A DNA stretch of 64,000 nt. It comes from a bacterium. GTDB taxonomy: Bacteria > Patescibacteriota > Microgenomatia > UBA1406 > GWC2-37-13. Under the pieces are notes generated by a model. It made no database searches. It was not told where the DNA came from and saw nothing but the letters and a program-made list of their open reading frames with translations. The DNA lies in contig JAKBEU010000001.1 in NCBI GenBank assembly GCA_021833625.1, positions 310,001 to 374,000 of the forward strand. Reading direction: 5' to 3'. Position numbers and translations under genes: made by a program. Numbering within the stretch: position 1 is the stretch's first letter; each line of letters begins with the position of its first letter. This document shows, in pieces, positions 29,225 through 56,244 of this stretch.

Positions 29225-29267
29225 GTTGATACCCCCTGCTCATTTTTTATGTATAATGAGAGTAATT

Positions 29268-33503: not shown

Positions 33504-33523
33504 ATTTCATTATTCATTATTCT

Positions 33524-34123
33524 TTATTGAATTTCAAGCACAAGGTCTTTGTAGTTGGGATATGTCGCCTGAGCCGTATCATCAACATATTTCGAACTTT
33601 CCTGGCCTAAAGGTTTAAGGGAGAAAGTAAACCTCCCCTTTTTCTTAGGAAGAAAAGTAAAGGAAAGGATGGGCGTTTCTTCAAACTGCGTTATTTGCGT
33701 GGATTGCAGCTGCTTTGTTGCGGAAATGGACACTCTGTTTTCCCTGTCGAACGTAAAAATGCGGAAAGTCGTGTCCCCGTTCTGTACCGCTTGCCTCTCA
33801 AAGGCGGTTTTGTCATAGGTCATAACAACATCATATCCTGCAATTTTACTGTTCCCCGATGTTGCAACGAGCTGAATGACAAAAGGCTTCCCGACGGGCA
33901 CTGAGGTTGCTTTTTTCTCTTCTTTCAACTCCATTATTCCATTTATCGGATGAGGCAAACGGGTCGGAATAACAGTCGGTTCCGCTTTACGTTGCGCCCT
34001 TGCGTTCTCAGTTCCTTCTCCTTTTTTTGAATTAATAACCAGGTATCCGACGATACTCCCTCCCAGTAGGAGAAGTGCAAGGACGATGAGCATTATTTTG
34101 GTGTATTTTGTGTGCGTTTCCAT
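33524..34123 (-). CDS. Membrane-anchored cohesin-like protein
   Basis: A 199-aa protein with one N-terminal TM (about 10-30), a Lys/Arg/Glu-rich linker and a beta-sandwich domain (about 75-199) that has the cohesin pattern: IAGYDVVMTYDKTAFER, then VSISATKQLQ and PILSFTFLPKKKGRFTFSL. Its ATG at 34123 comes 1 nt after the upstream stop (TAATATG), so translation is likely coupled. The domain is more divergent than in the 228- and 402-aa proteins. Confidence 0.78.
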   Translation of the reverse strand: METHTKYTKIMLIVLALLLLGGSIVGYLVINSKKGEGTENARAQRKAEPTVIPTRLPHPINGIMELKEEKKATSVPVGKPFVIQLVATSGNSKIAGYDVVMTYDKTAFERQAVQNGDTTFRIFTFDRENRVSISATKQLQSTQITQFEETPILSFTFLPKKKGRFTFSLKPLGQESSKYVDDTAQATYPNYKDLVLEIQ

Positions 34124-34124
34124 A

Positions 34125-35891
34125 TTATTCTTCATCATATTTTATTGATAACGCCTGTAGTACTATTGAATAGTCCTGAGTATCAATGATATTGTCAAGA
34201 TTAAGATCTCCTATTGCGAGTTTGCTTGCATCGGTTGAGCCTAGATTCTGGCGAATAAATGTCGTATCGTACGAATCGATTATCCCGTTTTGTTTCCCAT
34301 TTGTTTCCGGCAAGTCTCCGCTTAACATCACTATTCTCGAGAAGTCGAGCGTATTTGTTCCTGATTTTAATGTAATATTTCCGTCAGCACAATGATATGC
34401 TCCCGCTTTTGATTCGGTCGGTGCACTGTCACACACTTTCTTTTGCAGTTGTTTCGGACCTTTGACGTATACCCTATATCCGCCGCCGTTTGCGATATTG
34501 TTAAATGTTGCCTGGCCCGACCAGACGCCTGAGTCGTCAACCGTGAACGAAACTGTTTGATATGCGGTTGCAGACGTAAGACCTCCTCCGCCTAACTTCA
34601 CCTGTACTTTGAGCGGAGTGCTGTTTGCCGGTTTTTTTGTGATACCTTGTATCTTTATTTTTAAGGCAAGTGTTGCTGACCCTGAGCTGCCGGGAACTGA
34701 CGTTGGACCCACGACCGGATTAGTAACTCCAGGCACCGGTACATTGGGATTCGTGTTTCCCGAGGAGGTCATAAGTGATCCATAATAGTATCCAACTCTG
34801 TTGTCCCCTTCTCCCCACGCAACCGGCTGGGAGGTGTTTATTGAACCCTGGACTATACCGCTAAAGTCTCCATTTTGTACGAGTTCTTTTCCACTAGCAT
34901 TTTTCATCGACACATAATCAAAAAAGGCCTCAGACCCGCGGTCAACGCTTAAACGTAAAAGATAATGACGGTCATCTCCTGTCCCAGAAAGCGTAATGGG
35001 TTGATTTGTTTTTTCCACATAGTCTTTTGATTCGGGGAAAGCAAGACTATAGATAGTTGCATTTTGCTTTGTGCTGTTTGCACACGTGTCCGAATTACAC
35101 ACGAGTGTCACCCTCACTCCTTTTCCTTGAGATACTCCCGTAAGCACGCGAGCAGAGAGAGTATATTTGCCAAAAGGAAGGATTAATTCCTGGTCATAAT
35201 TCACGTCCGTTCCCAGAACCGTCATGTTTCCTGTTGCGTTTGAAGCTGCACAACAGTCATCAGACGTACCTGTCGACAGTTGGCATTTCGTATCATCATA
35301 ATAGCCCGCGTTTGGACTCGCAGAACAAACAAAAATGTTATCCGTCCCCTCATATCTACTGTATCGACATCCCGTCAAACCGGCACCAACTACTTTCAAA
35401 CAATCAAGACGTTTTCCGTAGTTACACTTCACTGTCACTTCGTCATATGGGCGGAGTGTCGAAGGAGCCACAGAAGCAGAGACAAATGTCTGTGCTTTAC
35501 ATTCATTATTGTTGTTATTGTTATTGTTGTTATTGTTATTGTTGTTATTGTTGTTATTGTTATTGTTATTATTGTTATTATCCCCACAAGTACAATCTTG
35601 CGTCTGAGCATCGCAAGTCTTCCCTGCCTGAGAACATGTACATGTACGAGTTTGCTGACATTTCGATCCGGTTGAGGCACACGCACTCCAAGCACCATAC
35701 GTTGGGGTACAGGTGCTACTATTTTGAACGCAACAATGAGCCTGACACGCCCAGCCAACTCCACCATTGCCACAATCGCTTGCTTGGCTACATTCATATA
35801 CTCCATTATCAATCATGCAAGCAGCACCTACGGTTCCCACAAAAAGGAGAATCGTATAAATCAAACTAAAATATATAAATAGTTTCTTCAT
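34125..35891 (-). CDS. Secreted modular protein with poly-Asn tract and C-terminal dockerin
   Basis: A 588-aa protein in the order: signal peptide (about 1-23), a Cys-rich region (about 24-103), 25 consecutive Asn (about 105-129), a galactose-binding-like beta domain with paired Cys (about 230-360) that is also present in the 402-aa protein, an Ig-like X-module (about 405-500) and a type-I dockerin. The dockerin has two calcium loops (NGKQNGIIDSYD and DLNLDNIIDTQD, about 527-576). This is a candidate ligand for the cohesins of the cluster. Its start overlaps the end of the upstream gene by 4 nt. Confidence 0.87.
   Translation of the reverse strand: MKKLFIYFSLIYTILLFVGTVGAACMIDNGVYECSQASDCGNGGVGWACQAHCCVQNSSTCTPTYGAWSACASTGSKCQQTRTCTCSQAGKTCDAQTQDCTCGDNNNNNNNNNNNNNNNNNNNNNNNNNECKAQTFVSASVAPSTLRPYDEVTVKCNYGKRLDCLKVVGAGLTGCRYSRYEGTDNIFVCSASPNAGYYDDTKCQLSTGTSDDCCAASNATGNMTVLGTDVNYDQELILPFGKYTLSARVLTGVSQGKGVRVTLVCNSDTCANSTKQNATIYSLAFPESKDYVEKTNQPITLSGTGDDRHYLLRLSVDRGSEAFFDYVSMKNASGKELVQNGDFSGIVQGSINTSQPVAWGEGDNRVGYYYGSLMTSSGNTNPNVPVPGVTNPVVGPTSVPGSSGSATLALKIKIQGITKKPANSTPLKVQVKLGGGGLTSATAYQTVSFTVDDSGVWSGQATFNNIANGGGYRVYVKGPKQLQKKVCDSAPTESKAGAYHCADGNITLKSGTNTLDFSRIVMLSGDLPETNGKQNGIIDSYDTTFIRQNLGSTDASKLAIGDLNLDNIIDTQDYSIVLQALSIKYDEE
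35505..35579 (-). repeat. Trinucleotide repeat coding for 25 Asn
   Basis: Twenty-five consecutive AAC/AAT codons (GTT/ATT on the plus strand) in irregular order. The mixed codons make it a partly degenerate microsatellite. A change in repeat number would alter the linker length without breaking the frame. Confidence 0.95.
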
Positions 35892-37096
35892 TTCGTTGGA
35901 TTGTTGATTATTAACGCCCCATGTACCCCTGCCGCCGGATCAACTGTCCCAAATAAATTTGCAGTTCCATCTACAATCCAAGATGTCGGTTGTTTTCGCG
36001 GATCAGTATAAGACTGTGAATCCGCAAATTGAGAATTCACTATTCTGTCGCTTCCCCATGCATCTTCAAGTGTTATATAGTCAATCTCACATTCCGTCCC
36101 GTCTTCGCAATAAATACGCACCGTGTATTTTTTTCTATCACCTTCCTGTGGAATGACAACGTTTGTCTGCATTTCGCTGAAATCTGCCTTTACGGGAAAG
36201 ACGGGTGTTCGTGCGATGATGTCGTTGCGTTTTTTTCCTCCTCCGCAATCACTTTCATTGCAATGTATCGCAATAACCATTCCTCTTCCTTTGTTGTAAT
36301 ACACTTTTGCACCGACAATAAGATTGTAAGTTCCCTTGTCAAGAACGACATTTTGTTCGTAGCGGAACGGTGCGGGATTTGCAATAATCGAATTGATATA
36401 CAGTCTGTCTCCCCGGGGTAATATTTCTGTCGTCGTACCGATTTGGTCCTGATTTCCCGTAATTTGAGGAGCAGGACTTGCGCCGACGGTGGGAACAGGT
36501 GTTCCGTTCCCTCCTGCGCCCGTCGGGACCGTCACGGGAGTTGCGCCTGACGGAACGGGAACTGTCGGGGTAATGCCGGTATAGGCAAGATCTTCCTTAC
36601 TTATTGCACTCTGCCCTGCGATATTTGTTGTTGAGTCCCAATTAAACTGCAACGGAAGCGCCGTTTCCGGTTTCATGACAAATGCGATTTTCGCAAGCTG
36701 AACCGGCTCTCCCCCTGCAAATGGAGTTACAGTACGCGTTCCCTTTATCGTAACGACATGGGTCAGAATATCAACTGCGGGCTCACTGATGACCGCACTG
36801 TCCAACATCGTCACATTTGAGATGGGGTTTGCCTCATCAACAAAATTCACTTTTGTCGGATCATAGGTAAACTTCAAATCAAAGGAGTAAAAAGGAGAGC
36901 TGTTAGGATTGATATTCACATAAAGGTCAAAATTACTACCCGCTTCAACTTTTGCGCCGGGAACCGTAAAAAAAAGACGCGGAGGCGCAGCAGTTGCCTT
37001 TGATTTTTGCTTATATTGTTGGAACCACCACACACCAAACCCGACAGAAAGAAAAAACACCACCAATACCGCCAGTATTCGTATTTGAAATTTCAT
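35888..37096 (-). CDS. Membrane-anchored cohesin protein with galactose-binding-like C-terminus
   Basis: A 402-aa protein: N-terminal TM anchor (about 8-26), cohesin domain (about 38-160; FDLKFTYDPTKVNFVD, then TIKGTRTVTPF and KIAFVMK), Pro/Thr/Val linker (about 175-215), and a domain (about 228-345) with YINSIIANP, CNESDC and a late DYITLEDAW, homologous to that of the 588-aa protein. It overlaps the downstream gene by 4 nt and follows the upstream gene by 2 nt. Confidence 0.85.
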   Translation of the reverse strand: MKFQIRILAVLVVFFLSVGFGVWWFQQYKQKSKATAAPPRLFFTVPGAKVEAGSNFDLYVNINPNSSPFYSFDLKFTYDPTKVNFVDEANPISNVTMLDSAVISEPAVDILTHVVTIKGTRTVTPFAGGEPVQLAKIAFVMKPETALPLQFNWDSTTNIAGQSAISKEDLAYTGITPTVPVPSGATPVTVPTGAGGNGTPVPTVGASPAPQITGNQDQIGTTTEILPRGDRLYINSIIANPAPFRYEQNVVLDKGTYNLIVGAKVYYNKGRGMVIAIHCNESDCGGGKKRNDIIARTPVFPVKADFSEMQTNVVIPQEGDRKKYTVRIYCEDGTECEIDYITLEDAWGSDRIVNSQFADSQSYTDPRKQPTSWIVDGTANLFGTVDPAAGVHGALIINNPTK

Positions 37097-37098
37097 AA

Positions 37099-38544
37099 CT
37101 AATCCCCTTTTTGTCCAAAATTTTTTCCGACAATCCCTATATCAACTGTATCACTTATTCCGTCAAAGTTCATGTCTCCCTGATCGGTTTTTTGGCTTAC
37201 TGCAATACTTACTGCACTCAAGTCTTTTTTATCAATAATATTGTATCCCTCGCTTTGCGTATCAAACCCATTCGTATCACCTGAATACATCGGTCTTCTG
37301 TCAATTTCTGACAACAGCTGTCCGCAGGCAGAGTCAAACCCTATAGAACAGTTGAGCAACTTATTTTTTTGCATATAAACGAATTTATAGGAACGACTTA
37401 CGGTGATTGCTTGTTTTACAACCACTGTGTAAGGAAGGGTCTGTTCGAGTCTGAAACTCAGCTGTGGAGAGACAAAGTAGTTTCCGACTCGCGTAAAGCT
37501 CACCATCTGGGAACATCCGGGACACGCGAGTGCGCTGCCATTCATTATATCCACCTTTACGTTTCTGATAGCCTGTACACTGCTTGCCGCATCCGGGAAG
37601 TTGAGTTTCAAAATGATATCCGCGGTGTTGACGGGTTGAATTGTTCCTTGAGTCGGGGAAGGAATTGTGTTGTCGCACTTACTGCACGCACAGTCCATCG
37701 TGGGAAGCGTTGTTGATTGTGAGCCACAGGCCGCGTTATATGCAATAACCTTGTAAGCATGTTTATCCAGATCTCCGCACCAGGCATACGTATATGCGGT
37801 CTGATTTTTCCCCAATATCGCAATCGGAATTGTCTGGGTGTCCTTATAAATTCTATATCCGTCTTCATTTGTTACATCCTTCCACTTGAGAATAACGTTT
37901 GTACCGCATTGTGAATCGCACGTTAGACCCTGAGGAATCTCCGCGCGACAATCAGGAGTCGGGGTTGGAGTAAGAGGGTTGGAATCAACGACAAAATCAA
38001 GAGGGTTCGTAGCTCCTGCAAGAGTAAACACGTTCTCCGGAATGTTTGGGCCTGAAACTTGGGACGATGTGAGGTTGATCCGCAATGTCGAAAGATACGA
38101 TGTCCCCCTATTTGTCACCTTAAAAGTAAGAGGAATAATGACTGACGATGTGGGGAGTTGAGCCTCAGTTTTTTTGGATACGAATATGAGTCTCTTTAAT
38201 CTTTTTGTCTGGTCCACTCTGGTTGTTGTGACATCGCTGTCTGCCAATACTTGCTCATCAAACCCGGTAGGGAGTGTTGCGCTTACAAAATCAAGATTAT
38301 CATCCCCTATATTTTCAAATGAGAGATCAATCCCTGACATATGCAGTGTTCCTGTCGAAACAGTAACACCCACATTCACCGTTCCGCCAGGTTGCACGGA
38401 AGCTCTTGTGACGGTATACGATATATTAGCAATGGCCTCTGACGCTTTTGAACTTGCCTTGTAGTTGTTTAAGTAATACCAAGCCCCTATAACTGAAGCG
38501 ATTGCTATCGCTCCAAAAAAGGCCACCCGTAAAATCGTTTTCAT
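37099..38544 (-). CDS. Membrane-anchored cohesin-FN3-X-module-dockerin protein
   Basis: A 481-aa protein: TM anchor (about 4-22), cohesin-like domain (about 35-180; GTVNVGVTVSTGTLHMSGIDLSF is the opening strand pair, shown in part), a fibronectin-III-like domain (about 200-285) with several Cys, an X-module-like domain (about 310-420), then a dockerin (about 425-481) whose second loop DMNFDGISDTVD is canonical. It has both a cohesin and a dockerin, so it could act as a scaffold. The start at 38544 comes 1 nt after the upstream stop (TAATATG). Confidence 0.84.
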   Translation of the reverse strand: MKTILRVAFFGAIAIASVIGAWYYLNNYKASSKASEAIANISYTVTRASVQPGGTVNVGVTVSTGTLHMSGIDLSFENIGDDNLDFVSATLPTGFDEQVLADSDVTTTRVDQTKRLKRLIFVSKKTEAQLPTSSVIIPLTFKVTNRGTSYLSTLRINLTSSQVSGPNIPENVFTLAGATNPLDFVVDSNPLTPTPTPDCRAEIPQGLTCDSQCGTNVILKWKDVTNEDGYRIYKDTQTIPIAILGKNQTAYTYAWCGDLDKHAYKVIAYNAACGSQSTTLPTMDCACSKCDNTIPSPTQGTIQPVNTADIILKLNFPDAASSVQAIRNVKVDIMNGSALACPGCSQMVSFTRVGNYFVSPQLSFRLEQTLPYTVVVKQAITVSRSYKFVYMQKNKLLNCSIGFDSACGQLLSEIDRRPMYSGDTNGFDTQSEGYNIIDKKDLSAVSIAVSQKTDQGDMNFDGISDTVDIGIVGKNFGQKGD

Positions 38545-38545
38545 A

Positions 38546-38893
38546 TTAGTTAAAACGCGTAAGACGCCATATTTCAAAATCTTTAAGATTCACGAGCGTG
38601 TCATTGTTGAAATCGGCAGAACAGTATGTACAGGTACTTGTTGCACCTCTTATCTTTGACAGCCAAAAATTGTAGTCAAGGTCATTTATCACGCCATTAC
38701 AATCCGCATCCCCATCCGGACGACGAGAACAGTTTGGGGTCGGGGTCGGGGTTATGGTGGGAATAGGAGTGCTTGAAGGACAGATATTGTATTCTCCACA
38801 GATTGCATGTACTGGAAATTTTTGAGAAACAGGTAGTAGGAAATAAACAACTATAGCTAACAATAAAAAATGCCAAAAAGATAATCTTTTCAT
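38546..38893 (-). CDS. Small secreted dockerin protein
   Basis: A 115-aa protein: signal peptide (about 1-20), a Thr/Pro linker (about 32-50), and a dockerin (about 54-112) with two canonical loops, DADCNGVINDLD and DFNNDTLVNLKD. Apart from the linker it is nearly only a dockerin, so it may be a cap or adaptor. The start at 38893 is preferred over 38950 because the latter would overlap the upstream gene and break the signal peptide. A TAGTAT-like box lies just upstream. Confidence 0.85.
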   Translation of the reverse strand: MKRLSFWHFLLLAIVVYFLLPVSQKFPVHAICGEYNICPSSTPIPTITPTPTPNCSRRPDGDADCNGVINDLDYNFWLSKIRGATSTCTYCSADFNNDTLVNLKDFEIWRLTRFN

Positions 38894-38946
38894 GGATACT
38901 AATACTATAGATAAACGTAGGCCTGTTTGCAAGCAGAAAACGACAC

Positions 38947-39243
38947 TCAAATCACCTTCAAAAGACGGAAGAGCGCGAACGAAATAAAATAGAACAAAAT
39001 GAGTTGAAAAAGAGGAAGATAGAGAGACAAGAAAATCGTTACCAACGCAAGGATAAAGAAAGATTCGTTGTGAATTGCAGGAAGTAGACCTTTTGTAATA
39101 AGCATGAGAATAACAAGAAGAAGTAACACGCGTGGATTAAACCAGTAGAGTGGCCAACTGAAATATGATGCAAGCCCAATTAAAATAGCGGCCAGAATGA
39201 GAAAAATCTCCTTTGTGTCAAAATAAAATGGACCGAGGTACAT
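38947..39243 (-). CDS. Small polytopic membrane protein
   Basis: A 98-aa protein with about four TM segments and very few charged residues. No family was recognised. It lies within the surface-protein cluster, 53 nt after the 143-aa gene. Confidence 0.7.
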   Translation of the reverse strand: MYLGPFYFDTKEIFLILAAILIGLASYFSWPLYWFNPRVLLLLVILMLITKGLLPAIHNESFFILALVTIFLSLYLPLFQLILFYFISFALFRLLKVI

Positions 39244-42101: not shown

Positions 42102-42323
42102 ATGTCATACAAAACCAAAACACTTCCAAAGGTATCACTTGCAGATCTTCCTGACCTAATCACCATCCGAGAAGTTGCATCCCTTCTTCGCGTTTCATCT
42201 CTTACCATAAAACGATGGGGAAAAAAAGGAAAGCTTCCCGCAATCCGCATCAACTCCCGTGGAGACAGACGCTACAAAAAATCAGTCGTCCTCAAACTTC
42301 TTGGCGAGGTTACGGAAGAGTAA
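42102..42323 (+). CDS. MerR/excisionase-type helix-turn-helix DNA-binding protein
   Basis: A 73-aa protein with a MerR-like winged HTH at about residues 20-65: LITIREVASLLRVSSLTIKR, then GKLPAIRINSRGDRRYKKS. Proteins of this size act as excisionases or local regulators. It has the strongest promoter in the window and sits 15 nt before the 832-aa gene, so it may control the large-protein locus or the divergent surface cluster (inference). Confidence 0.88.
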   Translation: MSYKTKTLPKVSLADLPDLITIREVASLLRVSSLTIKRWGKKGKLPAIRINSRGDRRYKKSVVLKLLGEVTEE

Positions 42324-42338
42324 TGTATACTATAATGC

Positions 42339-44837
42339 ATGGTTGAAATTCCTCCGCGATCGGCTCACACAGAAAATCCCACTACACCAGAAAGGCCACT
42401 TGTCTATACACCACTTTTGGGGCTTCAGGGAAGGCTAGCAATAGGAGGCAGTGCTCTTTTTCCTTCAACTGCAGCGGAACTCACGCATGGGATAAACAAG
42501 CAAAATGAGCAGGCAACTATCGCACTTTTGAATAGGGCATCGACACGTGAGAGAGGTTCCTATTGGACGGCTCAGGCGGAGCAATCAAAAGATGAGCAGC
42601 TTGCGAAATGGAAAAAAAACGTCACAGCGAAAATTAATCTCATACCGGAATCATCATTAGGAAAAGATCATGCCAAATTTTTTGCAAAAATCGGTATCAC
42701 AGCTGCAGCGTTTACCGAAGAGGGGGCGCAAAGAATGTACGACAGATATTTTTCAAAGGCTCACGCCGGCGGACAGGGGCTCAATCTCTTTGTTGCAGAT
42801 ACGGTAAGAGCTTTTACCAACGAGAGTGGGATTGATACTGTTGCCCTCAAAAGTCATCTTCCCGCGTTTCAGTGGATGGCAGGAATGTTCGGAGGGAATT
42901 CAGCAGAAATAATCACCCAACTTATTGACACCGAAATTGAGAGTAGTACAAATGAAGCTGCTTTTGTATCGGCACGAAAAGATAAAGTGAACAATTTAAC
43001 TCATCACGAAACAGAATTGCTTACTTTTTTAACGGAAGGAGAAACAGTACGCCTGGAACCTCCCCTACCGCAGCATACACCTGACAATCCGACAACTATC
43101 CGGACGGAACCGATAATCACCATCACTCCTGAAGAAATTGAAAAGCTCTCGAAATTGAATGCAAAACCAGAAATTGTTTCCCTCGGAAAAGACGCAAAAG
43201 GCCACGATATGACGGTGCATGTGGGATTTCCTGATAAGAAAGATGCGGATGGGCACATACTTTTCCCCTCAGAGCCTTACGTATTTATTGCGGATGAACT
43301 TACGGTAAGCGATAAAAATCACCATGAGACACTCAAAAAAGTGTGTGTTATTGCGGCACACGGAATAAAAACGCAGGACAATACGTGGAAATTCTTAAAC
43401 CAGCGGGAGATATATGACACCGTTTCGAAATATAATAAATACGCACGAAAAAACGGCCTTCCTCCTATTGAATTTATCATGTCGTGCAACGCTCCCGGTC
43501 AACCAGATAAAGTAAATATTATTTCCATCAATACGGGAGACGGAACAATAGTCCAAAGCGACAATGCATCCATTAACGTCTCTCTTTACACCGATGCCAC
43601 AACCGGAGAACACGGAGCAACGGCACATTTTGGAAGCGGAGAGTTTATCGGAATTGATGATTTGATACGGCGGAAAAAAAGACAGGAAGCAATTCCCGCA
43701 GCCGAACTTGACGTTCACGTAAAACATGCGGCAGAGTATCTTGCCCGACTGGACAAGCAGGCGGAACAAATAGAAATTGACTCTGTCAGCGGAGAGATTC
43801 TTGAGATAGTTCCCTATCCCACCCCCTCGCTTGAACCACATCTCTCGGATTATGAAAAACGGTACACACAACTGCGACAAAAGTTTGAGGCTCAAAGCAC
43901 TGCGTGCGTTACCGAATTAAAACAGACTCCCGGAGTTCTTGATGCCAAACTTGTTATGGGCGCTGTAGTGGTGACCTACGATTCTTCAAAACAAACGCCT
44001 GTTGATCTCCCTTATGCCGAATTTATTTCTGCAACAGACTCATCCCGCGGAAGATATGGAAGAGCATCTAAGTCGGCCCTCGGAGTTGTGATTGTTGATC
44101 TTAATCCAAATAAACGTGCGGACAATATCCCTCCCACCGTGTCCACTGTCCATGAACTGCAACATCATGCACTTGCAATGAGCGATTATCTCCTTACGAC
44201 CGACCCCACTCTTCCCTTGGCTTCAGCATATCGTTCAGGCCGAAATGAGGCCCTATTCGGCGATCAACACATTCAGATGAGCGATGATCTTTTCGAGCAG
44301 GACTTCCCCCAGTATGAGAAAGTGATGGGGAGATCGCTTATACGTGGTGACGTAAATAATATTCGGGATCAGCTTGCATATCTTGACGAATTACATTCAT
44401 CATTCATGCAAAAAAAACCCAACTGGTTCAGCGCTGCAGAGGACGTATATTCTTCCAGTTCATTGCAAAAAAAGAAACACTGGGAGCTCGTGGGAAATAG
44501 TACTTCAGATATAGAGTCATCCAAACGATTGTTGAAATATACACAGGGGTTATATCATATGACGAGGGTCCGTGACGTGTGGGCGAAGCGGACCGATTTG
44601 GGTCCGGAACAGACTGCTTTTATGGCAAACATTGATGTTCTTTTCAACCAAGCAGGTTCCTATATTGGCACTGCGCGAAGCGTCCAACAGGCCGAGCGAC
44701 TGGTTGGAGACGTATGGGAGTCGCTTAAGACTCAATTTCCTCACACACTCGAAATGCCCGAGCTCACCGAATCTTTCCTGATTGGGGAAGCAACCGGAGC
44801 GGTACTTCCCGGAACCGCACACTTCCTTTTTGATTAA
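42339..44837 (+). CDS. Large protein with shared N-terminal domain, caspase-like and HExxH motifs
   Basis: An 832-aa protein. Residues about 55-230 match the N-terminal domain of the DEAH helicase (FxKIGI 114-119, YDRYF 134-138, QWM 178-180, FGG 184-186). Residues about 310-410 look caspase-like (clan CD): hydrophobic strand then HG with His341, and FIMSC with Cys383. Near the C-terminus is a zinc-peptidase motif HELQH (605-609) with Glu637 28 residues later, as in gluzincins. Two protease types on one chain would be unusual. There is no signal peptide. TATACT (42326-42331) ends 7 nt before the ATG. Confidence 0.75.
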   Translation: MVEIPPRSAHTENPTTPERPLVYTPLLGLQGRLAIGGSALFPSTAAELTHGINKQNEQATIALLNRASTRERGSYWTAQAEQSKDEQLAKWKKNVTAKINLIPESSLGKDHAKFFAKIGITAAAFTEEGAQRMYDRYFSKAHAGGQGLNLFVADTVRAFTNESGIDTVALKSHLPAFQWMAGMFGGNSAEIITQLIDTEIESSTNEAAFVSARKDKVNNLTHHETELLTFLTEGETVRLEPPLPQHTPDNPTTIRTEPIITITPEEIEKLSKLNAKPEIVSLGKDAKGHDMTVHVGFPDKKDADGHILFPSEPYVFIADELTVSDKNHHETLKKVCVIAAHGIKTQDNTWKFLNQREIYDTVSKYNKYARKNGLPPIEFIMSCNAPGQPDKVNIISINTGDGTIVQSDNASINVSLYTDATTGEHGATAHFGSGEFIGIDDLIRRKKRQEAIPAAELDVHVKHAAEYLARLDKQAEQIEIDSVSGEILEIVPYPTPSLEPHLSDYEKRYTQLRQKFEAQSTACVTELKQTPGVLDAKLVMGAVVVTYDSSKQTPVDLPYAEFISATDSSRGRYGRASKSALGVVIVDLNPNKRADNIPPTVSTVHELQHHALAMSDYLLTTDPTLPLASAYRSGRNEALFGDQHIQMSDDLFEQDFPQYEKVMGRSLIRGDVNNIRDQLAYLDELHSSFMQKKPNWFSAAEDVYSSSSLQKKKHWELVGNSTSDIESSKRLLKYTQGLYHMTRVRDVWAKRTDLGPEQTAFMANIDVLFNQAGSYIGTARSVQQAERLVGDVWESLKTQFPHTLEMPELTESFLIGEATGAVLPGTAHFLFD

Positions 44838-44851
44838 CACGCTTTAACGCA

Positions 44852-45304
44852 TTACGCAACCGGGGCCGGAGGAAGATGATCTACGTTTTGTTTTTCATTA
44901 TTTGCATCCGTCTTTTCGGTCGGAACTACTTTATTTTGTTCTTCCTGCTGTTTTTTCCAAACCGGATATAAATATGCCGCGCGGAAATTAAGAAGTGCCG
45001 TTGCAACTTCGACTGAAATATTCTGTATTTTTTTTCTGAAAAATTCATTTAATTCGCCGTCCGGAATATCAGCCTCAAGAAGCTTATCAAGCTCCTCAAC
45101 ATCAGAATCGTTCAACAAACTTATGAAGTGCTCGTTAATGGCTTCATTCACTTTTTTTATCAGCAACGAACGGACAACTGGCATATTTGCGGCAGTTACC
45201 TCAGGGTCCTTCCGTTCCTCGATGAGTTTATCGACGAACGTCTGAATCGCCATCTGGTCCTGCATCCCGTTTTTGTAACTGTTCATGTCTTGCTGACTTA
45301 TCAT
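44852..45304 (-). CDS. Small helical cytosolic protein (DUF5663-like from memory)
   Basis: A 150-aa helical protein with a C-terminal Pro/Glu/Asn-rich tail. The central part (about 22-115, with LLNDSDVEELDKLL and VATALLNFRAAYL) recalls a DUF5663-type helical domain, though I cannot verify this. The 116-aa protein at 56245 is of a similar kind. A TAATAC box ends 6 nt before the ATG. Confidence 0.72.
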   Translation of the reverse strand: MISQQDMNSYKNGMQDQMAIQTFVDKLIEERKDPEVTAANMPVVRSLLIKKVNEAINEHFISLLNDSDVEELDKLLEADIPDGELNEFFRKKIQNISVEVATALLNFRAAYLYPVWKKQQEEQNKVVPTEKTDANNEKQNVDHLPPAPVA

Positions 45305-45353: not shown

Positions 45354-48300
45354 TTATGCTTCTTCTTCTCCTTCTCCTACCACATCGGCTGTCGTCTGAG
45401 CTGCCCCGCCCCCCGCTCCCTCAGAAGTTGTAGTTGTTGTGGCTTCCTGTTCTCCTGCTTTCCTCTTCTTCTCCTCTTCATCTTTTTTCTTAGCAACAAG
45501 GTCTTCTTCCATCTGCTTTTGTATTTTTTTCTGCTTCTGTTCGTCAAGATATGCATCAAGTTCATCTATTTGACTTTCTTTAAAAGGAGCAAGTCCAAAG
45601 ACCCCTCCCTCCCTGCTATGGAGGACCCTCAACAGTTCTTTTCTTGCGGCATCATATTCCCGTTGTTTTTGTTGTTTTTCACTATCCTTCGCCAGCTGCA
45701 GGGTTCGTCTTGCTTTTTCGTACGCAATAAATGCTTTTTGCGAGGCAGTAAATCGCTCATTGGACGATCTTCTTTCTCCTTCCTTATCATGCTTTCCAAA
45801 ACTTTTTCCTTTTTCAAGACCGAAGAGCTGCATCATGTCATCCGGACCGGCGTATGCTTTTGAATCCACGACCCCCACTGATTTTTTCTTTTCTTCTTCC
45901 GTCAATACTATTTCACTTGTCGCTGAAGTGGGAGTAGGTGTGGGTGAAGGAGTAGGAGTTGGCACAGTTTGTGTAGGCGGTACTACCGTTTCTTGCGGCG
46001 TTACTCCTCCCTCGACCGGTTCAACATTCTCTCTTCCCATTGGAATAGGAATGAGCGGAATAACTATCGGAGGAACAAGAACAGAGGGAGCATCAATAAC
46101 GTATGTCGGGGTATTTCCTGATACTGTTGTCGTAATGGGTCCTGCTATTGCAATAAGAGATTCTGATGTGGAAACAGGAGGAGTATTTGTAGTAATAACG
46201 TCATGAAGCGGCGCCCCTCCTCGGACGACACCAAAGTCATATAACTTTCCATTATCTGTCAATATAGAAGAGGTTATTGTCCCAGCATGTGGAGAGTCAG
46301 GGGCGGTAAGATGGAGAATCTGGTCCCAAATGTTGTTATACTCCGTTCCCAAAATACCGTCCGGATGACTGCGTAAGTTATCCTGATCCACAAACATTTT
46401 TGCGACCTCACCATACGTAAATTCATGTCCCTGAGGGGTGACAAATGTATGTGTGTCGGACGGATCAAGACGAAGGGCATCGTTCAGACTATCATGTGCC
46501 GCGGAATAATTTGCCGGAATGGCAATATCACCATGTCCGGGAACGGAAAGCGTAAAGTAGAGATGCCCCTCTGCCATTTCATGAGGAACGTTAAAGGTGA
46601 TGCTTGGATCATGTGCCGGATACAAAATATCTCCTCTTCCTGCCTGAATAACATACACAGCGTCTCCTGTTTGAGGATTGGTATCTTTATAGTCGTAAAT
46701 CGGTCGATGATAGGCCATACCATTATTTTCATTTCCCCCGTACATTGACTGTCGTTGTGTGTGCACATCAAACGTATCGTGTTTTTGAGTCAAAATGCCG
46801 TCCGGTCCTGAGATGTGTATTTCCTGACTGCTTCCGCCCGGAATGGTATGACTTGAAGTTTCGAGAGTAACTCCGCTGTGCAACTGTCCGCCGCTTACTA
46901 TCCCATCTGCTCCGATGTGTGCATTATCTATGAGAACAACATCATGATGTCCGATAACGACGAGGTCGTTATTGCCCTGGGCGTCTTTTACCCATTCCGT
47001 TCCTGACGGGACGTGCATTGTGTGCCCGTCAAATGACTGATCGATTGTGCTTCCTGTCGGGCTTAATACGGTCTCCGAGTGACTGGTTGCAATTGTCTCT
47101 CCCTGATGAATGGAAATACCGTGAGATTGCAAGGTAGCAACAACGTCTGTGTTTACCACGTGTCCGTTTCCGTCAACTTCAATCAGTTTTCCATGTGTGT
47201 CAACCTGCAAATCGTGTCCAGACAAGTTCATGATGACGTGTCCGTCAGCAGAATCAACAATCCGTTCCGTTTCCGTTCCCGGTTGGGCACCCGGAGTATG
47301 TTCATATCTATATCTCCCCGGCAATTGTACGTGAATTCCATCTATGACTTCATCGTGAGCCGGAAGAACTTCCGTGTGTGCCACATTTTCAACCGTATGA
47401 CGCACCGTCAAAACGGCTGTTTGAAACGTACTCAGTTGTAACGGTACCGACCGTCCTGAAATCACGTCTCCCCAGTCTTTGCTCCATACTGGTATTCCTT
47501 CCCGTATTACATGTTGCACTTCCTGGGCAACCCCACTAAGCACTTGATATTCCATTCCCATAACTGCGCCTCCAATTGGCATCATAATGGCGGATTGTAA
47601 GACAACCGTTGCAGCGCGTTTAGCAGCAAGGCGTCTCAGTACTCTTTCTTTGTTGTGAATACTCTGTTCCTTCGTCACCGCTCCCCTTGCTTCGCTATAA
47701 TATGCATTCATCAGATTTTTTGCATCCTCTGGCGACATCCCCAACCCTGCGTTATTATCAAGCAAACCGTTGTTGTCCTGGAGCCATTTCAGAACCTCAG
47801 CCCGTGTTCCATAGCGAAGTTGTGCCTCAGCAAGAGCTGAGAATTTCTCAAATAGTCCAAGACCTGCATTCCCTCCCTTTGCCCCATACGTAAGTTCAAC
47901 ATTCCCTGTTATGGGTTCTCCATGACAGAAATCGGTGTGTAAGGCTCCATATTCTTCAAGTTTTTGTAATCCCGCAATAACATCACTCTTTAATCTTAAA
48001 TATTGTTCGTTTCTCTGTAATTCGTCATAAATAATGTAATTTTGTGTTGTAAACTGCAAATCTTTTGTTCCGGAAATATCGGCAATGCGCATTCGCGCAT
48101 CAAGTTGTGCTATTTCCCTTAATATTTGGAATGCTTCCCGTTCCGTCATTTGACTGACATCCTTACCGTTGAGAAGACTCTCAATCCTCAAGGCTACCGT
48201 GTCGGCATTTTCCATCATGCCAGGCTCAACAAGTGCCCGTCCCATTTCGGTTCGAATACGAGCGGCTTCCGGTCCTTTTTTCCCGAGGGCAACTTCACGT

Positions 48301-51300
48301 GAAACCTGAGCCACCTCTCCTCGATATCTTCCTCTGAAAACTTCATGTCCTCCAACGCGCAGTCCCATTTCTTTTGCCGCAGTCATACCCATTATTCCTC
48401 CGAGTCCTCCTACTATTTTTGAGGCTGTCCGTGCTCCAAATAATGCCGCACTGCTTCCTGCCCCAAGGACAAATGCTCCTCCATATGTTGCAATATCGGC
48501 AGTAATGGACCACGTTGCAAGCTCCACTCCGTGAGTTCTTTCGTTCTCTCCGACAAACAACTCACGCTCTGCCATTCTGCGGAGTACGCGCTCTCTCAAT
48601 CCTTTTATGGGTGTTTCTCCGCCCTCTCCTCCCCAACGTGATTCTGCAGTCGTTATATTTATTTTGAAATCTTTCCACTTATCTTCTTCCTGAAGAAGCT
48701 GCCATTTTGTTTTTCCCGTTTCGCCAAATGGCTTTGATAATTCATTCACTACAGAGAGAACGTTAGAAGAAAGTTCAATTCCAGTACTTAAGTCGATTGG
48801 TCCACCGCTGGTTTGTTTTCCAAATGTATTTACCTTCGCGACAAGCCGTATTTGTGCTTCGGCTACAAGTCTGCTTTTTTTCTCAGCATCCGTTCCGGCG
48901 CTTGCCTCAGCTGCCGCTATTTCTGCGAAATATGCTTCAATAGCGCCTTTAACTGGAACGGCAAGTGGAGAATTAGCTATCACTTCCCGCCTTTCCCCTC
49001 TTCTTAATCCTTTGACTGCAATTCTGCTTGCAACCGCATCCTGCTCTTTCAGTGCATGCTGATAAATGGATTCAATAAGCGGATCACGGCTTCCCGCCCT
49101 GTCTTCAACGAGTCTGTCTCCTAACCACTGTTTTGCAAAGTGCATCTGGGAGGTCTCTCCAAGTGCTGTTATACGCGCAACCGCATTTCTTCCTCCCCAC
49201 CAAAGGCGCGTCAAAAAGCCCTGTTCACGCAACATCTTTCTCCCTTCTTCAAGGGACTTATCAATAAGCTCTGAAGTGACTTCAACGGGAATGCGCATCT
49301 GACCTATTGCGGCATTTCTGTCGACCCCTTCTCCTCCTACGAAATGGCCTTTAAGGGTCATACTCATCCTGTCTACAAACCGTCTGTTTTGTTCACGGGC
49401 TGCCTCACGGTATAGTCCGTTTCTCCATATAGTTTGTACCGGATGAAGAATACTTCCTACGACCCCTCCCAAAAGAGGAACCTTTGAATACCAGTGGGTT
49501 CCCGACGTTTCCACTTTCGACATGACGTGATCTACGAGGTTGTTATTATGACTGATGTAGTGAGTGTCGTCTTTTGCAACCACTACCTGTGCCTGAAGAT
49601 CATTCTCCGTAATCACTCTTGGTTCAGGAGGGGGCGCGACAGGAGGCTTCGTCGGATCCGGTTTATCCGGATCTGGTTCAACCGGAGCGGGCTCAACCGG
49701 TTCCGGCTCTACAATTCTTTTTAAAATCTCTCTTTGATTTCCCGTTTTTTCATACACTACTCCCAAATCTCCCACTTTTTTCTTTCCCTTTGGAACAACA
49801 AGTTCACGGCGTACTTCCAAGTCTTGTCCTCCCCTATTCCAATCTTCCTGCATCCGTTCCTGATCGTTCGGGTTTGTTGAAGAACGCAGCGGGTCAAGAT
49901 GCCTTTGGTTTGCTTCCAACTGTTGACGGGCTTCCATAAGCTCGTCAATCTTTTTAAATTTTGTTCCTGCTCCTTTTTTTTCATCCCTGTCTTTGAGGGG
50001 AATTTCCCTGTACAGTCTGCTGTTGTTTTTTAGCGTGTCATAGAGCGTCTGGAATTTTGCTGCCTCTTCCTGATTTCCCGCCGTTGTTGCAGCTTCAATT
50101 TTTGACTGCAAGAAAATCATTACCCCTTCAACAGGAACTCCTTCGGTTATGATATGAGAAGGCAACTCTCCGTGGGCTCTCAGCTCCACTTCAAAGCTCC
50201 AATTTTTTGTTTCTTTTGCGCGATCAACTGCGGACTTTGTATACAGATAGCGGGCACGCACTTCTCTTTCATCGCGTGAAAGAGTAGAAATATCCCTGCT
50301 GACGAGCGCCTGCATCTCTGCTTCATAAAGGCCAAAGGCTTCGCTGAATGCATTTTTTACCTCTTCAGGACTCCCCACCGTCTCCGCTGAGGCAAATTGC
50401 GGATCGTATAATTCCGGAGCTTTCTTTAAAAGTACTACAACCGCATCAAGCGTTGTCAATTCTCCCCCTCTGTCCGGATTCTCTCCCGTTGAGGCGTCCT
50501 CCGCCTCGGATGCAAGACGAGAGAGGGGACTGTCTTCATTCTCTCCTGCTGCAGAAAGGTGCTTTTGTAAAGCCTCAACTACTCTTTTTGTATAAACTAA
50601 TTCACTCTCTCCGTCTTTCCGTTTTAACTCTGTGACTGTCGGATCCGCCGACACTTGAATCGCCTCAATTACCTTTCCCAGCCAAACTCTGTTCTGTTGA
50701 TATTCAGATGTCTGAATATATTCTTCCACCTTATGGGGCTTGCCCTTATTATCTTCATAGGTGACTTTCTTTAAAACAAGTGTTTCCGTAGGGGTAGCAA
50801 CGGGAGCGGGAACTTCAACCTGGGGAGGTTTTTCTACTTCAGACCCGGAGATTGCGTGATCTCCGCTTATCCCCTCCATCATCTCCCCCAATGGTTTTTT
50901 TCCGTCAAGCGCAGTTAACTTCCTTACGTCCGCAATTACTATTTTCTCTCCCGGCTTTAGCTGATAGTCTGTGCCTGTTACAGTTTTTTTTCCGTCTGCA
51001 TCAATTGTAACAATGGAAACGTGTGATGAGCCCATTTCAGTCGCAATCACACCTTGTTTGTCGATAAGTCCCATCGTAACGTGTGAAGTGGAATTGGTCG
51101 TATCTGTCGGATTGTTTTTTTTGTAAAAATCAACCAATTTTCCCTTAATAAGAGCGAGTACTTCCGCCTGAGGTTTTCCTTTCATCTCAGGACTTGCAAG
51201 CTCGTGTGCAACGATGGTCATAATGGCAGCAGAAGTAAGTCCTGTGGCCAACTCACGACTTGAAGTCTGGAACAAGACTGCAGCATAGGGTCCGTCCTGC

Positions 51301-51608
51301 CCGGTGAGTTGTTCCATTATCGTTCCCACTGCTAAAACATCCTCCGCCGTATAATTGTCTTCCCCTTTTTTTACTCCCAGTGATTTGAGCCTATCGGCAA
51401 CCTTTTTTGCGTTTTCTTGTTGTTGTTCAGGTGTCAATGGAGCAGCGTCTTTTTTGTTTCTTTCAAGGTAGGCCATGTGAACTTCACGTCCGGCACATAC
51501 CGCTTCCTGTCTTTTTCCGAGCCTGCTGACGGAGGAAGATATCGAGAGTTCTGAAGATTTAGGTGCCTCTGAGGTTGTTGGCCGGGCTCCTTCAGCTGAT
51601 AGAGTCAT
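45354..51608 (-). CDS. Giant (2084 aa) protein of unknown function with two membrane segments
   Basis: Residues about 40-250 contain a region with a faint resemblance to a PP2C-like fold (low confidence). A charged helical part follows, then hydrophobic segments near 1040-1075 (YGGAFVLGAGSSAALFG) and 1335-1360 (SAIMMPIGGAVMGM) that could insert into the membrane. A His/Asp/Gly-rich beta region lies at about 1390-1720, then a Pro/Val/Thr-rich stretch (about 1820-1910) and a coiled-coil Lys/Glu/Gln-rich tail ending GEGEEEA. There is no signal peptide. The gene is divergent from the 979-aa gene. Confidence 0.82.
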   Translation of the reverse strand: MTLSAEGARPTTSEAPKSSELSISSSVSRLGKRQEAVCAGREVHMAYLERNKKDAAPLTPEQQQENAKKVADRLKSLGVKKGEDNYTAEDVLAVGTIMEQLTGQDGPYAAVLFQTSSRELATGLTSAAIMTIVAHELASPEMKGKPQAEVLALIKGKLVDFYKKNNPTDTTNSTSHVTMGLIDKQGVIATEMGSSHVSIVTIDADGKKTVTGTDYQLKPGEKIVIADVRKLTALDGKKPLGEMMEGISGDHAISGSEVEKPPQVEVPAPVATPTETLVLKKVTYEDNKGKPHKVEEYIQTSEYQQNRVWLGKVIEAIQVSADPTVTELKRKDGESELVYTKRVVEALQKHLSAAGENEDSPLSRLASEAEDASTGENPDRGGELTTLDAVVVLLKKAPELYDPQFASAETVGSPEEVKNAFSEAFGLYEAEMQALVSRDISTLSRDEREVRARYLYTKSAVDRAKETKNWSFEVELRAHGELPSHIITEGVPVEGVMIFLQSKIEAATTAGNQEEAAKFQTLYDTLKNNSRLYREIPLKDRDEKKGAGTKFKKIDELMEARQQLEANQRHLDPLRSSTNPNDQERMQEDWNRGGQDLEVRRELVVPKGKKKVGDLGVVYEKTGNQREILKRIVEPEPVEPAPVEPDPDKPDPTKPPVAPPPEPRVITENDLQAQVVVAKDDTHYISHNNNLVDHVMSKVETSGTHWYSKVPLLGGVVGSILHPVQTIWRNGLYREAAREQNRRFVDRMSMTLKGHFVGGEGVDRNAAIGQMRIPVEVTSELIDKSLEEGRKMLREQGFLTRLWWGGRNAVARITALGETSQMHFAKQWLGDRLVEDRAGSRDPLIESIYQHALKEQDAVASRIAVKGLRRGERREVIANSPLAVPVKGAIEAYFAEIAAAEASAGTDAEKKSRLVAEAQIRLVAKVNTFGKQTSGGPIDLSTGIELSSNVLSVVNELSKPFGETGKTKWQLLQEEDKWKDFKINITTAESRWGGEGGETPIKGLRERVLRRMAERELFVGENERTHGVELATWSITADIATYGGAFVLGAGSSAALFGARTASKIVGGLGGIMGMTAAKEMGLRVGGHEVFRGRYRGEVAQVSREVALGKKGPEAARIRTEMGRALVEPGMMENADTVALRIESLLNGKDVSQMTEREAFQILREIAQLDARMRIADISGTKDLQFTTQNYIIYDELQRNEQYLRLKSDVIAGLQKLEEYGALHTDFCHGEPITGNVELTYGAKGGNAGLGLFEKFSALAEAQLRYGTRAEVLKWLQDNNGLLDNNAGLGMSPEDAKNLMNAYYSEARGAVTKEQSIHNKERVLRRLAAKRAATVVLQSAIMMPIGGAVMGMEYQVLSGVAQEVQHVIREGIPVWSKDWGDVISGRSVPLQLSTFQTAVLTVRHTVENVAHTEVLPAHDEVIDGIHVQLPGRYRYEHTPGAQPGTETERIVDSADGHVIMNLSGHDLQVDTHGKLIEVDGNGHVVNTDVVATLQSHGISIHQGETIATSHSETVLSPTGSTIDQSFDGHTMHVPSGTEWVKDAQGNNDLVVIGHHDVVLIDNAHIGADGIVSGGQLHSGVTLETSSHTIPGGSSQEIHISGPDGILTQKHDTFDVHTQRQSMYGGNENNGMAYHRPIYDYKDTNPQTGDAVYVIQAGRGDILYPAHDPSITFNVPHEMAEGHLYFTLSVPGHGDIAIPANYSAAHDSLNDALRLDPSDTHTFVTPQGHEFTYGEVAKMFVDQDNLRSHPDGILGTEYNNIWDQILHLTAPDSPHAGTITSSILTDNGKLYDFGVVRGGAPLHDVITTNTPPVSTSESLIAIAGPITTTVSGNTPTYVIDAPSVLVPPIVIPLIPIPMGRENVEPVEGGVTPQETVVPPTQTVPTPTPSPTPTPTSATSEIVLTEEEKKKSVGVVDSKAYAGPDDMMQLFGLEKGKSFGKHDKEGERRSSNERFTASQKAFIAYEKARRTLQLAKDSEKQQKQREYDAARKELLRVLHSREGGVFGLAPFKESQIDELDAYLDEQKQKKIQKQMEEDLVAKKKDEEEKKRKAGEQEATTTTTSEGAGGGAAQTTADVVGEGEEEA

Positions 51609-51734
51609 AAGTGAATGATTTTACCCTCAGTATAAGTATGTAATAACTAATACTAATTAAACTTTGAAGGTCTGTCAATAACCTATAGAATATTACTAGT
51701 TGTATTGAGAAACGACATAACCTATATTTTATCT

Positions 51735-54671
51735 ATGGCAGAGATTCAAAGTCCAATTCCTCAACCGACTGAAGCTCCAAAAACACAAGAAGCTGCTGCC
51801 CTCGCCCGAGCATCCGTCACCACAATTCTCCATCCTAATTTTATTGACCATCCCGACAAAAAGCCGGACGGAGTTCTCTGGCCAAAAATCAAACCGGGAG
51901 AGAAAACAGGTGCCGATCAGATATATAAAAAGTTTGCAATAGATGTCGACGGGCAAAGTGTCAGTCTTTACAACTACCTTGACGACACAAAAGACGTTTT
52001 TGAGTCACTTATCGCTTGCCTTTCACAAGAGCAAATAGCAAAGTTACCGAAACGCACTGTGGGAGACGTTGAGTTGCTCGATTTTAAAAGTCCTGAAGTG
52101 CGCCTTCACGTCATTCAAGGAATAGTAGAGCAAATTGATGATGTAGGAATGGATAAATTTGGAACGGTTATCGCAAAGTTCGGGGACATTCAGTCGACTG
52201 ATGCGCTGCAGGTCCTTCAGGCCCTTGGGGTTTCATATGCAAATGACATTATAAATGCTTCTGTAGAGCCCCAAACCGTAACAACAACGACGGAGACAAC
52301 GGTAAAAAAATCAAGAAGACACGTTTCTCGGGTTAATCACGGAAGACTACAGATGCCCTCTGAGTTTTCCCGTACGCTAAGAGAAGGAGAAGATAAAAAG
52401 ACACTGGAACTGTCAAAAGAAACAAATGGATTATTTAGAAATCCTGACGGTTCACCGACAAAAGAATTTCAACGTCCTGTCGAGGTCGATCTTCGGACCG
52501 CAGTTGCCTTACAAGACATTTTACTCCCTCCCGGCGAGCGACTTGCCCGCATTCGGCTTGAAGGATTAATTGCCACAAAAAAAGCAGCGCGTGCAGCGAC
52601 GGAAACCACTACGACGGAAGGAAATGAACTTAATAAAATTCTGAAAAAACTTGTATCTGATGAAGATGCAGTTGCCGAAATCAATGTTCTTACTCAACAG
52701 CTCGAACAAATGCGTCAAATGGAACGCAGCGCGATTTTGGTGGGACTGAAAGTAGGATATGAAGACGGGACACGAGCCATCCAGCCTCCTGTAAGCGAGG
52801 ACGTGCAAAGATTGGCAGATGAAATTACAAAGGGAATGCCGGCAGTGTTAGGAGGGAAAACACTTGAGACAAACAGAAACCAGACAGCCCTCATGTTGGA
52901 ATCCGTTCTTACAACCCCTCTTTCTGCCGAACAACAACAGGTATTGCAAAAATATTTAAGCGGTACATCCCTACAAACCACTACCTCAGCTGAATCCGTC
53001 TTGAAGGATTTGGGATGGGAAAACAATCCGGAAAAAAATTCCCTTCTTCGCATTCTTGCCGACGGGCGACGCGTCACGAGGGCTTTTGGTTCACTGGCAA
53101 AAAAACAGGATAGCTACACACAGGTTGACGACATGTATACGCGAGGAACGGTATTTGATATGGGACTCAAGGGCGTTGAATACCTCTACCGACAAGGAGA
53201 TATAAAAAGCGAGGTAATCACAGAGACCACTACTCTCTCTCCCGAGGTAAAAACAGAAACTATTACCTCCACTCCTCACCTCATACAAGAAAGCATCCCC
53301 GAATATACGGTCGATGAATCACCATTACGGATAGAGACTCCAAAAGTCGAGGAAGAACCAGAAGTAGTCGCCTCAGAAAATCCTGATGCGGTTGATGTCT
53401 CAAAAATCCCACAAACAACTAAACTTCCTGGTGATCCTTCTCCAGAAGACGTTGCCTTCGCTGAGCGAATTCTTGCAAGACGTAAAGCAGAAAGAGAAGC
53501 ACAAGAAGCTCCACCGACTCTTCCTAAGACAGAGGAAGCACCGCGGCCCGTTGACAGAAGTGATGAGGTTGATGCGGGAGTTGGCGCTATTTATGGAGAA
53601 CCCGCAGAGAGAGTGCCTTCTCAGTTTGAACAATTACTTGAACAGGATGCGCGGGCTGTCCAGGACAGCGAACTTGAGAATGATACTACTCCTCCTGAAG
53701 TCCCCACAACCGTCGATACGGGTAAGGAGACGCGCAAAAGACCTTCAAAAGAGGATCAAAAACAAGTAGCGGCATATTATATTTGGGAAAAAAGAACGTC
53801 CGGAGATGAGCTTACTGATCAGGAAAGAGCCCGAGCAGGACTGTCCGCTCACCGACAGGATAGAGTGGATGCGTTTCAAGCACAAGTGGTACTTGCCGAA
53901 CAGTTTGCAACAGTTGAACCTACCGATGACCAAATAAAACTTCCCGCCCGCATAAATTATGAAGTAAGAAAAAGAGCAGGAGCGCAGGAAGTCAGTCCAA
54001 GTGAAGATCAAACTGCCGACTGGGAAGAGGCACGAAAGCATTTGATGGAACTCAGAAAACAGGCAGCTGAAGAAGCTCAGGCAATATACCAATCCCGTCT
54101 TGTCGAAGCGCAAGCCCCCCCTTCCCAATCTGAAGTCGATGAACAGGCTTATGCGCATTTTGACAGACGCGTCACTGGGACTGATAAAACAGACTGGTCA
54201 GAGGCGGAAAAACTGTTGAAACTAAAGGTGGGAGGGAGATCGCTCCAAGACCTTCAACACTTGGGATTTAGTCAACAAGAAATTATTGCTTTTGGCAAAA
54301 TAAACAATAAAGGAAAAATTATTGAAAAAATAAATGAGCGGAACCAAGCGCTTGGCTATCCGCTGTGGACAGATAATACAGCAACGCGGAAGTTTGTTGC
54401 ATATGGAGTCCGCGAAGCACGCAATGTACAACAAGTCGAGGAAAGAACAAGAGCAGAACAGGTTAGCTCGCTTATTGATACCATCATTCTGAAGAAAATA
54501 GGCAAAGAGGGACTTGATCGTTTACACCAAATGGGCGTTGAAACAACCACACTAACGGCACTTGAAAACAATGACGAAGCAATCGCCACGTTTATCACTG
54601 CACAAGGATGGCAAAGCGACGAGCAAACGGTTACCTTCTTAAAAAGCGTTATTGAAGCGGCAAAAGCGTAA
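51735..54671 (+). CDS. Large modular helical protein with DUF2934-like repeats
   Basis: A protein of about 978 aa without signal peptide or TM. It has a Pro-rich N-terminus, helical regions with Thr-rich linkers (TVTTTTETT), an acidic/Pro-rich part (about 525-670), then three weak DUF2934-like repeats (AYYIWEKR... about 678, INYEVRKRAG... about 740, AYAHFDRRV...DWSEAEKLL about 810-832). It ends in two copies of a roughly 60-residue module also found at the N-terminus of the convergent 520-aa protein. The start at 51735 follows TATATT (51723-51728) by 6 nt. Confidence 0.78.
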   Translation: MAEIQSPIPQPTEAPKTQEAAALARASVTTILHPNFIDHPDKKPDGVLWPKIKPGEKTGADQIYKKFAIDVDGQSVSLYNYLDDTKDVFESLIACLSQEQIAKLPKRTVGDVELLDFKSPEVRLHVIQGIVEQIDDVGMDKFGTVIAKFGDIQSTDALQVLQALGVSYANDIINASVEPQTVTTTTETTVKKSRRHVSRVNHGRLQMPSEFSRTLREGEDKKTLELSKETNGLFRNPDGSPTKEFQRPVEVDLRTAVALQDILLPPGERLARIRLEGLIATKKAARAATETTTTEGNELNKILKKLVSDEDAVAEINVLTQQLEQMRQMERSAILVGLKVGYEDGTRAIQPPVSEDVQRLADEITKGMPAVLGGKTLETNRNQTALMLESVLTTPLSAEQQQVLQKYLSGTSLQTTTSAESVLKDLGWENNPEKNSLLRILADGRRVTRAFGSLAKKQDSYTQVDDMYTRGTVFDMGLKGVEYLYRQGDIKSEVITETTTLSPEVKTETITSTPHLIQESIPEYTVDESPLRIETPKVEEEPEVVASENPDAVDVSKIPQTTKLPGDPSPEDVAFAERILARRKAEREAQEAPPTLPKTEEAPRPVDRSDEVDAGVGAIYGEPAERVPSQFEQLLEQDARAVQDSELENDTTPPEVPTTVDTGKETRKRPSKEDQKQVAAYYIWEKRTSGDELTDQERARAGLSAHRQDRVDAFQAQVVLAEQFATVEPTDDQIKLPARINYEVRKRAGAQEVSPSEDQTADWEEARKHLMELRKQAAEEAQAIYQSRLVEAQAPPSQSEVDEQAYAHFDRRVTGTDKTDWSEAEKLLKLKVGGRSLQDLQHLGFSQQEIIAFGKINNKGKIIEKINERNQALGYPLWTDNTATRKFVAYGVREARNVQQVEERTRAEQVSSLIDTIILKKIGKEGLDRLHQMGVETTTLTALENNDEAIATFITAQGWQSDEQTVTFLKSVIEAAKA

Positions 54672-56243: not shown

Positions 56244-56244
56244 A

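Follow-up and report, generated by a model that had tools for sequence, protein, structure and literature searches.

A modular protein with an invariant His–Cys pair represents an apparently undescribed family at a conserved Microgenomatia locus

The 64,000-nucleotide stretch of Microgenomatia DNA analysed here (the window) carries, at 42339–44837 on the forward strand, an ATG-initiated gene for an 832-residue modular protein, the same open reading frame that an initial annotation had described. The source genome measures 1.10 Mb in 3 contigs at a completeness of 99.6%, and the bacterium is tiny and probably host-dependent. The protein begins with an N-terminal module (residues 10–238; 42366–43052, +; profile E values ~3e-74 to 3e-76), followed by a proline-rich linker recognisable in the sequence (residues 239–266; 43053–43136, +). 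Next comes a His/Cys domain (residues ~267–450; 43137–43688, +), delineated by its standalone relatives and an AF2 model, and the chain ends in an orphan region with an HELQH motif (residues 494–832; 43818–44834, +). The protein yielded no Pfam match and no PDB sequence match worth keeping, and a hydropathy scan revealed neither a signal peptide nor a transmembrane segment.

The N-terminal likeness to a DEAH-box helicase pointed out in the initial annotation is borne out: residues 49–233 match a second, 886-residue protein of the window (14854–17514, −; DEAD, Helicase_C and HA2 domains) with an E value of 1.1e-15. The shared module of ~230 residues heads at least 29 Microgenomatia proteins with differing C-termini. 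In a first search, covering 96 relatives, the N-terminal part of the window protein gave hits at 18 further sites spread over 11 genomes, including its own, and nearly all of these hits were N-terminal themselves. The helicase C-terminus recurs in L023, and other modules carry a PP2C/SpoIIE phosphatase (L027), a GNAT-like domain (L026), an M54-like metalloprotease (L024 and L028) or, in several cases, a C-terminus without assignment; that of L034 looks calcineurin-like, judged by eye only. A HopA1 match (E 0.08) fell below the cut-off and was rejected. Longer proline-rich linkers are found at the same place in several relatives. Within the module itself, R32, S68, R72, W91, Y134, F184 and G185 are invariant in a 14-row alignment (A6). 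The module has no match in Pfam or PDB. Its profile is positive in 11 of 281 genomes of the class, mostly from the window's own family, and none was seen outside the class among the 211 genomes of the phylum sampled. The 832-residue protein is a member of a modular family that appears to be undescribed and whose locus is conserved in Microgenomatia; a literature search of open-access titles and abstract openings brought up no paper recognised as describing it.

The locus is recognisable by its flanking genes. Only 15 bp upstream lies a gene for a 73-residue HTH_17/MerR/excisionase-like DNA-binding protein (42102–42323, +; Pfam HTH_17 E 1.4e-8). Its homologs occur in 57 of 70 family genomes, most at 66–96% identity, and adjoin N-module genes in six other genomes, thereby marking the place. 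At this same place, between the HTH gene and galT, genomes that lack the module carry other large families of ~600–730 residues (L142 and L143, in G038 and G009), so this site could be a hot spot of broader scope. On the other side, convergent with the 832-residue gene across a gap of 14 bp, lies a gene for a 150-residue protein (44852–45304, −) that is present in 16 of the 70 family genomes. This gene is mostly adjacent to or near N-module genes and convergent with them, with gaps of 2–1204 bp in most loci and of 5 kb in one; in the order-level relative L026 both genes lie on the same strand. The two co-occur: the 150-residue gene is present in 9 of the 10 genomes that carry the module but in only 6 of the 50 that lack it (Fisher p 3e-6, a value uncorrected for shared ancestry). 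Thirteen sequences of the 150-residue family share a helical-looking core, a variable linker and a nearly invariant LPPAPV tail at the C-terminus, in which P145 and P146 are invariant and A147 and P148 are conserved in more than 90%. This tail may serve as a recognition or processing signal.

Following on the same strand as the 150-residue gene is a giant gene for a protein of 2084 residues (45354–51608, −). Giant homologs, elsewhere 1.5–2.3 thousand residues long, adjoin the 150-residue gene in most such loci and also end in variable enzymes: a eukaryotic-type protein kinase in one (L166:2-6502; residues 1894–2150, E 8.8e-32) and a calcineurin phosphoesterase in another (L164:1-6912; residues 1962–2093, E 1.1e-13). 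A TCAD9 match inside the kinase match was below the cut-off and was rejected. As N-module proteins and giants both vary in their C-terminal enzymes, two types of gene at this locus carry exchangeable enzymes. No immunity gene matched to the cargo was detected; the only close downstream gene encodes the 150-residue protein, which belongs to the same family whatever the cargo.

Beyond the giant gene, the window encodes two large cytosolic proteins of 988 (51705–54671, +) and 537 residues (54681–56294, −), which have no family matches and were not found in the relatives' loci examined. Further upstream, at 32817–38950 (−), lies a cluster of cohesin-domain and dockerin-like secreted proteins, one of which (34125–35891) contains a run of more than 20 asparagines. 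This cluster suggests a cohesin–dockerin surface assembly in a Patescibacterium.

The His/Cys domain also exists on its own. Standalone relatives of 140–250 residues were found in seven other Microgenomatia genomes with the raw C-terminal query (E 1.7e-22 to 2.4e-4), and a profile search added an eighth, weak one. One of these standalone proteins, 194 residues long, is encoded at L061:7941-8525. A scan of genome contigs returned three relatives, none beyond those from the whole-genome search. Overall, the domain is rare and scattered over families: counting the source genome of the window, 9 of the 372 genomes of the class carry it. In an alignment of eight homologs, made up of the window's domain and seven standalone proteins (mean pairwise identity 29%, minimum 17.5%), nine of the 108 gap-free columns are invariant, namely a G, a P, an F, H341, G342, F352, T361, V362 and C383. 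His341 (43359–43361, +; within AAHG from residue 339) and Cys383 (43485–43487, +; within MSC from residue 381) lie 42 residues apart, as originally numbered, and the spacing stays within 40–45 in all eight homologs. Among the ionisable residues (H, C, D, E, K and R), they are the only two that are invariant. This pattern is the expected signature of a functional His–Cys pair and supports the pairing proposed in the initial annotation; metal-binding or structural roles would also be possible. If active, the domain would represent a new hydrolase family. Its mid-protein position would fit self-processing of the kind seen in large autoprocessing toxins; that the domain also exists in standalone form speaks against this being its main role.

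To what extent does this domain resemble clan CD peptidases? We modelled residues 267–477 with AF2 together with three relatives (four sequences in total; pLDDT 74.6, pTM 0.74). The predicted order of elements is E-E-E-E(His)-E-H-E(Cys)-E-E-E, a mostly β-structure with a single core helix. His341, with the invariant Gly342 directly behind it, lies towards the end of a long strand; a short strand and the sole core helix come next, and Cys383 ends the subsequent strand. The similarity to caspases (C14), CHAT and gingipains (C25) lies in the order of His and Cys, the HG after a hydrophobic strand, the Cys ending the next major strand and the spacing of ~40–45. Such a local strand–His–helix–strand–Cys arrangement would let the predicted domain work in a clan-CD-like manner. 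However, a caspase core requires helices upstream of the His. In the four-sequence model, strands alone precede His341 and no helix is predicted between residues 275 and 357 (pLDDT ~80–88 there), and the α/β/α sandwich is likewise missing.

The database searches agree with this picture. The window domain and five relatives gave no match to clan CD profiles in Pfam even at E 10, no clan CD match appeared in Pfam, NCBIfam, PADLOC, PDB sequence or Foldseek searches, and Foldseek found no match for the model in PDB or viral structures. No CHAT protein was found among 57 relatives. The VIA list contains no caspase or CHAT row, which on its own says nothing about the fold, and absence from the Foldseek list, taken alone, would not decide the matter either; the VIA list's DapF/proline racemase matches (Z up to 3.3, rmsd 4–5) are too weak to trust. 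Matches to LPD11 (E 0.027) and ThiS-like proteins (E 0.045) were below the cut-off. Since the upstream helices are missing from the model, only ~85 residues precede the His in the standalone forms and fold and profile matches are lacking, we do not file the domain under clan CD. The caspase–hemoglobinase fold originally proposed is thus not upheld, whereas the accompanying proposal of an unusual effector- or toxin-like protein stands in so far as the modular, effector-like nature extends to the whole family.

The C-terminal region is more difficult to place. Searches of the 372 Microgenomatia genomes, of viral contigs and of phage and plasmid records returned no relatives for residues 494–832. 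The HELQH motif, a candidate zinc-binding HExxH (residues 605–609; 44151–44165, +), and Glu637, a candidate third ligand (44247–44249, +), are positioned as first described, the Glu 28 residues past His609. The motif is preceded by a segment that is strand-like by sequence (GVVIVDLN...STVHELQHH, the strand being GVVIVDLN), and it is helical in a single-sequence AF2 model of the orphan region, which is of low confidence (pLDDT 41). This strand-then-helix appearance is presumably akin to that of zincins. In comparison with HExxH/Glu zinc metallopeptidases (gluzincins and M78 ImmA-like proteins), the C-terminal region shares the motif after a strand-like segment and a Glu that follows at a distance of 28 residues, set within RNEALFGD; unlike them, it has no profile match (Pfam detected no peptidase here) or relatives, and at this pLDDT the model is unusable for the comparison. 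HELQH by itself in one protein would be weak evidence. Across the N-module family, however many as 9 of the 29 variable C-termini contain HExxH, where shuffled sequences would give 0.42. The motif is found in three or more settings that are unrelated to one another: HE(T/Y/L)xH in L088, L022, L032 and L026, HE(I/A)GH in L024, L028 and L036, and the window protein. The nine cases are not independent, because proteins within one setting are homologous. The C-termini of L024 and L028 additionally show weak M54 matches. Based on this indirect support, we consider it rather probable that the candidate HELQH is a real zinc site. A likeness to the DnaN β-clamp in residues 628–668 (44220–44342; DFPxYEKV segment; E 0.001–0.004) is at about chance level over the 372 genomes, and homology was rejected.

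Taken together, we propose that the 832-residue gene encodes one of the cargo proteins of a Microgenomatia locus of the polymorphic effector or conflict type, a reading to which we assign a probability of roughly 45%. The N-module of ~230 residues would act as a shared handle that docks to a secretion or assembly partner, while the enzyme domains behind the linker are exchanged between species, an exchange that is directly observed. The window cargo would comprise the His341–Cys383 domain, most likely cysteine hydrolase- or peptidase-like with a fold that is not that of a classical caspase, together with the C-terminal region, whose motif is likely that of a zinc metallopeptidase. Judging from genomic linkage, the 150-residue protein would be an adaptor and the giant a carrier or second effector, both as likely partners. 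The cargo would then act enzymatically on proteins of another cell, its likeliest use being on host or competitor cells, possibly via the type IV secretion or pilus machinery of the lineage. The modularity, the linkage to the 150-residue gene, the variable giants, the patchy spread (11 of 281), the invariant His and Cys and the HExxH enrichment all count for an effector or conflict locus. Against it speak the helicase, which would be an odd toxin cargo, the lack of a signal peptide or recognised secretion signal on the 832-residue protein and of a matching immunity gene, and the standalone His/Cys proteins, which occur singly among housekeeping genes and thus suit a cytosolic role.

The overall organisation is reminiscent of polymorphic toxin and effector systems (Zhang et al. 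2012, PMC3482391), with a conserved N-terminal region, exchangeable C-terminal enzymes, several architectures per lineage and a patchy distribution. However, the window family has no recognised trafficking domain or cargo-matched immunity gene, its 150-residue neighbour is constant whatever the cargo, its cargoes include a helicase and a PP2C phosphatase, and it is restricted to Microgenomatia in the genomes sampled. As there is no cargo-specific immunity gene, an effector aimed at the host or a protein of intracellular conflict is more likely than a classical antibacterial toxin. A candidate export route is offered by type IV secretion systems, which are widespread in Patescibacteria (PMC12102498). 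The window contains, 11 kb away, a gene for a coupling-protein-like protein of 737 residues (29226–31439, +; TrwB_AAD_bind E 4e-9; no predicted transmembrane segments). As VirD4-like proteins are common in Patescibacteria and often lie far from, and are usually unlinked to, virB4 (PMC12102498), this gene is weak evidence for export. It has no effector set attached; module proteins would be hypothetical substrates, and their export by this route would be possible.

A rival reading is an intracellular conflict or phage-defence system. Here, the N-module would be an adaptor, and exchangeable effectors (proteases, phosphatases, a helicase, an acetyltransferase) would be recruited through it upon phage or plasmid entry, with the 150-residue protein and the giant as other adaptors or sensors. 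Variable effector domains on a shared adaptor, the patchy distribution and the hot-spot locus are consistent with this, as is the missing signal peptide, and intracellular conflict and defence systems characteristically contain protease-like, helicase, kinase and phosphatase domains. Yet PADLOC gave no match at E 1 for the 832-residue protein or its fragments, leaving room for systems not yet known; no sensor NTPase or known defence gene was identified adjoining the gene, and there was no match in phage or plasmid records. We therefore regard a defence function as possible, if doubtful.

A housekeeping function seems improbable. It would involve a scaffold or signalling set of the lineage, in which large proteins of the cytosol organise the cell surface or the pili and direct their enzyme domains at proteins of the bacterium itself. 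Such a set would suit the pilus-like, cohesin and Cys-rich surface genes in the neighbourhood, the core HTH gene and the housekeeping surroundings of the standalone His/Cys proteins, but core functions do not usually show so patchy a distribution or such rapid swapping of C-termini. Less probable still is the two-protease effector as first proposed, in which a true clan CD peptidase (caspase, CHAT or gingipain-like) is fused to a zincin. The strand–His–Gly, helix and Cys-terminated strand with two invariant residues at a spacing of 40–45 favour it, and the motifs locally resemble those of gingipains and CHAT; the short stretch that precedes the His of the standalone proteins, a prediction without the upstream helices to be expected, the Pfam, PDB sequence and Foldseek lists without clan CD and a top VIA Z of 3.3 for racemase folds stand against it.

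In its most specific and rather speculative form, the effector or conflict-locus reading would describe a hitherto undescribed polymorphic effector system of Microgenomatia, in which two carriers of exchangeable enzymes, the N-module proteins and the giants, are joined by an LPPAPV-tailed adaptor, and the window cargo, a cysteine–His hydrolase of new fold combined with a metallopeptidase, is delivered to a host or rival cell. The means by which Patescibacteria influence their hosts are a central question of the field, for which only a small number of candidate effectors have been named. One N-module, one putative adaptor and a fixed locus offer a way to search genomes for a candidate repertoire of Microgenomatia effectors.
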